Source: a virus. Taken from it: a stretch of 35,375 nucleotides of DNA. Both the position numbers and the translations under genes were made by a program. The notes below the pieces were generated by a model, which was given only the letters and a program-made list of their open reading frames with translations, ran no database searches and had not been told where the DNA came from. This document shows, in pieces, positions 31,668-35,236 of the stretch; position 1 is the stretch's first letter; every line of letters starts with the position of its first letter. The DNA lies in IMG/VR virus record IMGVR_UViG_3300030061_001526, positions 1-35,375 of that record; one strand, written 5' to 3'.

Positions 31668-31997
31668 TAAGTTATTTGACAATTAGGTAGTAAATTCATC
31701 ACGTAAATCTTATCGTGTCCGGCGAGGGCGATGTTAACGGCGGTAAGACAGGTGGTTAGGTAAACAAAACAAACAAATCACTTTGGAAACTTAGTGTGGT
31801 TTGTTTCCGATATGCCAGTTGGATTGACATTGAATCAGATACTTGTTTTAGAAATATTACTTGGGGTTCTTTGCCAGTTGGGTGTCAAGGGGTTGATGAG
31901 AAAAGATGCTTTGGAAGCTGCGAAAGTAAGGCCTTAGATGTTTACTACCTTTGTTAAAAAAATCAAAGAAAAAGCTTGACATTGGCAAGCTTTTTTT
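31668..31997 (+). ncRNA. Structured non-coding RNA, class unknown (~330 bases)
   Basis: From promoter to terminator there is no open reading frame of note, yet the sequence is much richer in G than the surroundings and full of helices. TCTTATCG (31708-31715) pairs with CGGTAAGA (31741-31748). AAACAAATCAC (31771-31781) forms an 11-pair stem with GTGGTTTGTTT (31796-31806). Two copies of TGCCAGTTGG (31813, 31872) are each followed by complementary strands, TTGACA (31824-31829) and TGTCAA (31883-31888). It does not resemble tRNA, tmRNA or RNase P RNA. It ends in a 10-pair terminator. Possibly a regulatory or scaffold-like phage RNA. Confidence 0.65.
31969..31997 (+). terminator. Terminator overlapping an early promoter
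   Basis: AAAAAGCTTG pairs perfectly with CAAGCTTTTT around ACATTGG, followed by T. The 5' arm and loop contain the -35 box (TTGACA) of the next promoter, so one sequence ends the RNA gene and starts the next transcript. Confidence 0.85.
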
Positions 31998-32004
31998 GTA
32001 TATT
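31976..32004 (+). promoter_or_regulatory. Sigma70-type early promoter
   Basis: AAGCTTGACA, 17-base spacer, TATATT. It serves the small gene at 32040, whose AAGGAG lies 12 bases before the ATG. Confidence 0.88.
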
Positions 32005-33493: not shown

Positions 33494-33900
33494 TGCCAAC
33501 TGAAAAACAATCGTGGTTAAAAAAGTATGACTCTTATTATGCCGCAACCGAGTATAATAGAAAACATTACGGAAAAAGAATTAGACAATTAAAAAGAATG
33601 TTAAAAGACGAAAAGTTCTTGGAGTTCTTATCACACTCAGAAAACAAAGATGATATACTACATTATCTGGCAAAATCAACCGAGTTTGATATGTATATTG
33701 TATACACAGAACAAGGAGACCCTTATATCGCTGACAAAGATTTTGGACTAATCAATCATATGAAAAAAATGTTAAGAGTATTACAATCAGAACATTATAT
33801 AAAAAATAGTTCATCAAGACCACAAGCAAAAAGATACGTGGAAATGTATTTGTGGTATGATAAAGAACCACAAGATGACTTACCAGAGTTGCCTTTTTAA
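33493..33900 (+). CDS. Basic early protein, unknown
   Basis: A 135-residue basic protein (EKQSWLKKYDSYYAATEYNR, then KHYGKRIRQLKRMLKDEKFL), mostly helical, with an acidic-aromatic end (DKEPQDDLPELPF). The start is fused to the preceding stop with GGAG upstream. The charge pattern would suit nucleic-acid or ribosome binding. Last gene of the early cassette; an A-rich stretch and the second RNA gene follow. Confidence 0.7.
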   Translation: MPTEKQSWLKKYDSYYAATEYNRKHYGKRIRQLKRMLKDEKFLEFLSHSENKDDILHYLAKSTEFDMYIVYTEQGDPYIADKDFGLINHMKKMLRVLQSEHYIKNSSSRPQAKRYVEMYLWYDKEPQDDLPELPF

Positions 33901-33924
33901 AAAAAAATTAAAAAAAAATACATT

Positions 33925-33953
33925 TTGAGGTTTTTGTTTAATATATATAAATA
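33925..33953 (+). promoter_or_regulatory. Promoter for the second non-coding RNA, mixed early/late character
   Basis: TTGAGG, 17-base spacer, TAAATA gives a weak sigma70-type reading. The same place contains TATAAATA (33946-33953), the exact T4 late consensus. Either would start transcription near 33960. Confidence 0.5.
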
Positions 33954-33959
33954 TACTTA

Positions 33960-34473
33960 ATTGGTCTTAAGTATTAGTTATTTGACAATTTGGAATTTGG
34001 AAAAGTAGAAAGATTAATTACCTTTCTATGGGATTGGCTGAAAAATGGGTAGACATTAGAAGCCCATAAAGCAATCTACGACAAAGTTGTGGTGACTTGA
34101 TAGTTGGAAAATATTTTAACTATCTATATCGACAGATATTGTCTAATGTATTTCCGTAAAACAGACAAGATGATTCTTGTGACTCTATTGTAGGTAAGGG
34201 TAAAACTGAAATCCTACTGAATGGCTGAAAAATCTACACTTGGAGAGATAAAGCATTTATATAGAAATTGTATTCACATCAATGAGGAATAACCACCTTG
34301 AGATGAACTATCGTAACTGATAGATATAAAGTTTAGAGTATGAAAAATCCAAGACGGAAATTGTGAGTAATCATTAATCTCGCATCCCCTATAAAATTCC
34401 AAAGATTTAAAAGCCCCAGCGATTTTTAGTTTCCACCTTTATATAGACTTAAAAAACAATGGGGCTTTTTTTT
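33960..34473 (+). ncRNA. Large structured non-coding RNA, class unknown (~510 bases)
   Basis: No open frame over ~680 bases, but many perfect hairpins: ATACTTAA/TTAAGTAT (33953-33974), TAGAAAG/CTTTCTA (34006-34028), GATAGTT/AACTATC (34099-34124), ACAAGA-TGAT-TCTTGT (34165-34180), GTAGG/CCTAC (34190-34217) and CTATC/GATAG (34308-34323). TGGCTGAAAAAT occurs twice (34035, 34222), like a repeated tertiary motif. It begins with GTTATTTGACAATT, also found at the start of the RNA at 31668, and ends in a strong terminator. Size and style recall the large ornate phage RNAs GOLLD and ROOL, but membership cannot be shown by eye. Confidence 0.7.
34409..34473 (+). terminator. Long-loop rho-independent terminator of the RNA gene
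   Basis: AAAAGCCCC (34409-34417) pairs with GGGGCTTTT (34461-34469), then T-run. The 43-base loop itself can pair (TTTTTAGT with ACTTAAAAA, one bulge), giving a long composite hairpin. Confidence 0.85.
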
Positions 34474-34586
34474 ACAAAAAAGCAAAATAAATTACATTTT
34501 TACAAAGTTAGTTGATATATATTATTGTATCAAGGTTACTTGATTAACAAATGACAATTAAAAAATAAAAAATAGGAGAATGAAAA

Positions 34587-35236
34587 ATGGACTTAAATGC
34601 AATTCGCAAACGTCTCGGTCAATTACAGACCACAAACAATCGCACATCAAGCTTATGGAAACCACAACCTGTTTTGGTCGTCCAGACCCAATTGAAGAGT
34701 TCGCACAGAAACTCAAAGCAAGTGGTAATAAAGAAGATTATCAACTATCTAAGAAACTTGAAGCAAAGATGAGAACCTTTGCACCAGTTATCGTTAGAGG
34801 TGAAGAATCACAAGGTGTGAAACTTTGGGGATTCGGTAAAACCGTATATCAAGAACTACTATCAATTATAGCAGACCCTGATTATGGTGATATTACTGAC
34901 CCGGTAAATGGTCGTGATGTATCGGTTGAATTCATTTCAGCAGAAGAGAGTGGAGCAAGTTTCCCTAAAACAAACATTAGAGTGAAACCTAATCAAACAC
35001 CAATTTCTGACGAACCATCAGTCTTAGAGTTAGTAAAAACTTCTCAGAAAGACATTACTGATATTTATCAAGAGCAGTCTTATGACGACTTAACCAATGT
35101 TTTAAACGAATGGTTAAATCCAAGTGAAGACTCAACAGAAGAAGAAGTGAAAAAGGAAACTGTTTCAACTTCTGATTTAGGAACTTCTAAAGTGAAAGAC
35201 ACTTCAGAAGCTTTTGATGAATTATTCAATTCATAA
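34587..35236 (+). pseudogene. gp32: gp32-like single-strand DNA binding protein gene with frame-breaking deletion
   Basis: The gene starts normally (AGGAG, then MDLNAIRKRLGQLQTTNNRT and SSLWKPQP), which matches marine T4-like gp32 N-termini. At about 34670 the reading changes frame: the continuation FGRPDPIEEFAQKLKASGNK...MRTFAPVIVRGEESQGVKLW lies in another frame and proceeds to 35236. Compared with intact relatives I recall, roughly 30-40 residues of the OB fold between WKPQP and FGRPDP are missing. As written, the first frame runs into nonsense and stops by 34772; a shortened protein could only start at ATG 34655. The acidic C-terminal tail (ending EAFDELFNS) needed for protein contacts is intact. 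Either a true deletion or an assembly error. Confidence 0.8.

Follow-up and report, generated by a model that had tools for sequence, protein, structure and literature searches.

Evidence for a double manA RNA upstream of gp32 in a T4-like phage

We conclude with high confidence that the stretch at 33925-34473 is a double manA RNA, in which two manA cores share a common central hairpin and are enclosed by a closing helix (P1) and an outer helix (P0), with a terminator-like hairpin behind them. The stretch lies in a window of 35,375 nucleotides (the whole DNA analysed), which is part of a 38.8-kb IMG/VR virus record of a T4-like phage. By capsid sequence the closest named relatives are Microcystis phage Mel-JY01 and the Flavobacterium phages immuto (51-56% identity; 43-56% when gp32 and capsid are taken together), which are too distant for a host to be named. 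Named phages show no useful DNA similarity to the window, and a scan of GTDB species genomes for the exact double-manA hairpin pattern turned up no occurrence, so that it gives no clue to the host.

The RNA is flanked by a gene ending at 33900 and by gp32, starting at 34587, and ahead of the gp32 frames there is no open reading frame of 60 or more amino acids between 33901 and 34579. The predicted folding of the stretch beats that of 100 out of 100 dinucleotide shuffles (z -2.5). These results, together with covariation among 51 homologues, bear out the proposal of a first-pass annotation that a gene-free, strongly structured RNA is located here. The local hairpins that it listed are present in the sequence, as are the two repeat copies 187 bases apart (GATTGGCTGAAAAAT/GAATGGCTGAAAAAT, at 34032 and 34219). 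The repeat it singled out, TGGCTGAAAAAT, is the conserved CUGAAUAA region of manA, which occurs twice, and the two similar modules it postulated are both manA RNAs according to the Rfam matches. It was right about a large structured RNA and slightly short on its size, as the true RNA also includes a 5’-terminal hairpin (H0) and P0. The manA identity, the habit of manA of residing in 5’ UTRs and the recurrence of gp32 as its neighbour were not foreseen. Coordinates are summarized in Table 1.

Table 1. Features of the double manA locus, in window coordinates.
Feature	Position	Strand	Basis or remarks
Promoter-like block of the RNA (TACATTTTGAGG...ATATATATAAATA)	33918..33953	+	Conserved AT block; promoter activity predicted
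H0, 5’-terminal hairpin TACTTAA/TTAAGTA	33954..33973	+	Perfect in window
P0, outer long-range helix	33990..33998 / 34394..34402	+	Strands pair; encloses whole unit
manA core 1 (5’ hairpin 34006-34028, helices 1b-1h)	34006..34186	+	RF01745 match 34006-34160; covariation
P1, closing helix GGGAU/AUCCC	34030..34034 / 34384..34388	+	Start of core 1 pairs with end of core 2
Central hairpin (3’ hairpin of core 1 and 5’ hairpin of core 2)	34190..34217	+	Covariation
manA core 2	34197..34391	+	RF01745 48.8 bits, E 2e-11; passes gathering score in relatives
Terminator-like 3’ hairpin with U-tract	34409..34473	+	Outer stem variable; inner CGATTTTTAGTTTCCAC...AAACTTAAAAA near-invariant
Invariant hairpin segment GATTTTTAGTTTCCAC	34421..34436	+	Found in at least 120 viral stretches
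Second promoter-like block, before gp32	34491..34529	+	ATATATTATTGTA exact at 34517-34529; conserved in relatives
5’ hairpin of predicted gp32 transcript, ATCAAG/CTTGAT	34529..34544	+	Sequence; recurs in several relatives
gp32 gene (ssDNA-binding protein), frame broken in this record	34587..35236	+	PF08804 E 1.7e-9, C-terminal 188 aa

At curated gathering scores no Rfam family passes in a scan of the window. In a permissive scan the manA family (RF01745; gathering score 55.2 bits) was matched twice, by copy 2 with 48.8 bits (E 2.1e-11) and by copy 1 with 21.8 bits (E 0.0022), both under the gathering score; the copy 2 match keeps E 1e-9 with the whole window as search space. Relatives were collected with a gp32-based search of IMG/VR, and their equivalent stretch is 70-92% identical. 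Copy 2 was found in all 13 relatives scanned (51.7-73 bits) and lies above the gathering score in six of them (73.0 bits in the best, L021, then 68.1, 61.2, 59.3, 58.8 and 55.3 bits). Copy 1 was also matched at E<1 in 9 of the 13, its scores reaching 28.5 bits in close relatives and 39.9 bits in whole-record searches; the latter recovered the pair of copies from five records, and in four of these the two matches are full-length and overlap. The conserved manA elements (the CUGAAUAA stretch, the GUGGUG loop, the ACCA loop and the GGUA...AAUCC hairpin) are present, divided between the two cores. The double form is represented by 88 distinct sequences.

For the analysis of covariation we aligned 51 distinct units and used the structure of the manA model, extended by two long-range helices. 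Bases are paired in 88.3% of 5,233 cells, changes on both sides occur in 73 of 109 pairs, and there are 802 double-changed cells, compared with 258 in shuffles and 86-203 in slid controls. The covariation that the first-pass annotation had proposed looking for among gp32-adjacent homologues is thus strong, and it backs the manA consensus structure. Most manA helices of both cores are 96-100% paired and carry double changes, with weaker values for 1f, 1h and 2f2, which are poorly aligned in this set. The same holds for the alignment of H0, at whose position hairpins of varied sequence are visible by eye in the relatives and only 42% of cells are paired.

The central hairpin is paired in 51 of 51 units, with double changes in three of its five pairs, and coincides with the zone in which the two Rfam matches overlap in relatives (for instance 1813-2027 and 1997-2196 in G019). 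A separate closing helix for each manA copy is absent; P1 joins the 5’ strand of core 1 to the 3’ strand of core 2. P1 is paired in every unit, including nine that carry a GGAAU/AUUCC variant, and no sequence is half-changed. On a tree built without the P1 columns there were at least three concerted changes, the independent pairs being too few for a p-value. Since P1 runs between the cores and neither copy has its own closing helix, we regard the RNA as a variant rather than an ordinary member of the family. P0 is well supported, with at least six contiguous pairs in 51 of 51 units (mean 7.9, compared with 7.0 when arms were swapped and 4.9 when they were shuffled), a support that is good, not overwhelming.

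Directly upstream of the RNA, the AT block at the equivalent of 33941-33948 is nearly invariant in the 51 relatives, and a second copy of the promoter-like block, 70% alike, precedes gp32. The exact T4-late octamer TATAAATA that had been reported here is present (33946-33953) but occurs in only 14 of the 51 relatives, and was rejected as a conserved feature. Within the window TATAAATA is found 14 times against 4.7 expected, with 10 of the 14 on the minus strand and most genes on the plus strand. As a separate observation, terminator hairpins containing the TTGACA -35 box of the next promoter occur at 31967-32004 in the window and upstream of manA in P-SSM2, S-SSM5 and MED4-213, so that elements of termination and initiation overlap at these hairpins.

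The long composite terminator of the first-pass annotation corresponds to the terminator-like 3’ hairpin with its U-tract, the arms of which span 34409-34428 and 34450-34469. Its outer stem is 84% paired, with double changes in seven of eight pairs. Among the stretches listed, a few carry this hairpin without manA: right behind a promoter-like block before gp32 (L194 and L214, and as a variant in L024), ahead of other genes (L203, L285), or behind a gene and without a U-tract (L202, L216). The hairpin is therefore a separate conserved element and not merely the terminator of manA, and it need not be the manA expression platform. Possibly the GATTTTTAGTTTCCAC...AAACTTAAAAA hairpin, found in marine T4-like phages with or without manA and with or without a U-tract, represents an undescribed RNA element. 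Swapping of arms revealed no conserved antiterminator (own versus swapped arms, 13.8 versus 14.1 and 15.1 versus 14.9), and the mutually exclusive (antiterminator) expression platform by which riboswitches are recognized was not found. Another gp32 clade (L083, L095, L100, L102, L105, L112) has a different terminator, AAGGTGGTGAGG...CATCACC, behind its double manA, and often an extra hairpin domain as well.

In a pattern scan that did not depend on gp32, this gene was directly downstream of 39 of 45 double units, the remainder preceding Hsp20, zinc-ribbon and other genes; among all units with a readable neighbour, 73 of 83 precede gp32. A U-tract was scored by regular expression in 64 of these 73, and in the gp32 context the second promoter-like block comes after the U-tract hairpin. 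The methyltransferase context is arranged differently (L213, L217, L224, L247, L248): the end of the terminator-like hairpin and the ATG are only ~15-20 nt apart, too little to hold a promoter. Where Hsp20 follows (L093, L173), the hairpin lacks a U-tract. In either context the gene must share the manA transcript or else be silent. Two further units (L137, L149) are without a terminator, and in them manA is immediately followed by promoter-like sequence for the downstream gene. In more distant gp32 relatives (L069, L067, L063) the tandem manA-like RNAs are divergent and an additional domain separates manA from the hairpin; L067 and L069 also have a small gene between the tandem unit and gp32. 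The gp32 gene of the window itself lacks 109 nt at 34669-34670 relative to all compared relatives (e.g. L003), which breaks its frame; the junction is in no other fetched locus and reflects either an assembly error or a real deletion.

For comparison we assembled 101 distinct single manA RNAs from cyanophage-type contigs and three isolate phages. A sigma70-like promoter lies within 90 nt upstream in 100 of the 101 (16% in a random control), and the RNA commonly sits 11-70 nt before a start codon. Among 93 neighbours gp32 formed the largest class (19), followed by transaldolase (10) and then others; manA also stands ahead of phosphomannomutase, 2OG oxygenase and Hsp20 genes. A free-standing single manA, considered on account of terminators behind the MED4-213 and S-SSM5 copies, was dropped as a candidate, as a start codon is close in most of the 93 cases.

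With little more than even confidence, we favour a cis-acting leader or attenuator, composed of a two-core sensor and the 3’ hairpin, to which a bypass promoter is added in the case of gp32. We infer that the double manA would form the 5’ leader of a transcript starting just upstream, and that both cores may jointly sense a candidate ligand or protein. The folded state would then set, at or through the 3’ hairpin, the transcription or RNA that continues into the next gene, which is mostly gp32. In the gp32 context the promoter behind the hairpin would provide a dose independent of manA, to which the leader would add a conditional one. We prefer this reading because single manA is located in 5’ UTRs and because gp32 recurs behind the single and the double form; a leader in the same transcript also fits the methyltransferase and Hsp20 contexts. 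A possible but less probable alternative is a stand-alone noncoding RNA of ~510 nt that has its own promoter, ends at the 34409-34473 terminator and acts in trans through a bound metabolite, protein or RNA, gp32 being no more than an adjoining gene with a promoter of its own. The succession of U-tract hairpin and second promoter-like block in the gp32 context, which is that of most units, fits such a free RNA as well, and the two units without a terminator, the lack of an antiterminator in the arm swapping and the occurrence of the double unit before other genes speak for it. Against it stand the recurrence of gp32 behind both forms in distant phages, the contexts without promoter room or without a U-tract, and the position of most single manA RNAs directly before start codons.

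We consider it improbable that the RNA is an autogenous operator, to which gp32 protein would bind in order to repress its own synthesis. T4 gp32 does repress its own mRNA via a leader pseudoknot (PMC535899), and both manA forms have gp32 as their neighbour more often than any other gene, but manA is found ahead of transaldolase and the other genes named above, and the RNA is ~115 nt upstream of the gp32 ribosome-binding site with a terminator-like hairpin between them. Kinship or analogy with the multimeric large phage RNAs GOLLD and ROOL, proposed by the first-pass annotation on account of size, phage location and a repeated module, is very unlikely: at E<=10 neither these two nor OLE matched, whereas manA did so at 2e-11. 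A decayed protein-coding sequence with chance hairpins, for which nothing was found in favour, is refuted by the excess of double-changed cells over shuffles and slid controls and by the absence of an open reading frame, and we give it practically no weight.

The loops of the two cores are divided in a manner that might bring them together. Core 1 keeps the canonical GUGGU loop and has GACA in place of the canonical manA ACCA, while core 2 carries UAACCA in another loop, in addition to GUUGUA/UAAC loops of its own. UGGU of core 1 is complementary to ACCA of core 2 in 49 of 51 units; both are nearly invariant, so that covariation provides no test of a contact. We suggest from these sequences that UGGU and ACCA may pair between the cores. 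More speculatively, and in our view rather unlikely, a free, phage-made double manA could use these loops to unite the cores into a composite binding site and act in trans during phage DNA replication.

The manA RNA was described as a riboswitch candidate only (Weinberg et al., 2010; PMC2864571). Its published neighbours are genes of mannose/fructose metabolism and nucleotide synthesis, ibpA and photosynthesis genes. The double form resembles manA in that both cores match the model, keep the CUGAAUAA stretch, the enclosing helix and the three-way domain, and retain the GUGGU loop (core 1), the ACCA/UAAC loops (core 2) and the GGUA...AAUCC hairpin; as described there, manA is likewise located at the 5’ end of transcripts in marine T4-like phages. 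It differs in having two cores with a common central hairpin and one closing helix between them, in window copies that score under the gathering score, in the terminator-like hairpin and second promoter-like block that stand between the double unit and the gene, and in its main neighbour, gp32, which is absent from the published gene list (PMC2864571). The common central hairpin, the cross-core P1 and the outer P0 are likewise not in the accessible part of the published manA description.

Like tandem-aptamer riboswitches such as that for glycine (PMC9481103), the RNA has two homologous domains in succession and one terminator-like hairpin, but here the domains are fused via the common hairpin and closing helix, and the sensor is a candidate. 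With the T4 gene 32 translational operator (PMC535899) it shares the location of a structured RNA upstream of gp32; compared by published description, that operator consists of a ~28-nt pseudoknot and UUAAA repeats located at the ribosome-binding site, and the double manA of a two-core fold of ~420 nt. Like GOLLD and ROOL it is a large ornate phage RNA, without a match to them in sequence or structure. The double form is unmentioned in the accessible literature naming manA, and manA is absent from a review of tandem riboswitches (PMC9481103). The manA family is thus known, and the double form is a variant that is apparently unreported, the absence of a report not being proof.

Should the double manA act in trans through a composite site, it would represent a phage regulatory RNA of a new kind rather than a leader. 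More generally, manA has counted since 2010 as an orphan among riboswitch candidates, its neighbours being a mixed set of genes, and the search is narrowed here in two ways. In these phage sets manA is most often partnered with gp32, the ssDNA-binding protein of replication, and this holds in two separate phage groups. The natural two-core form with a common closing helix, available in the 88 distinct sequences, is well suited to covariation analysis, ligand screening and structural studies.
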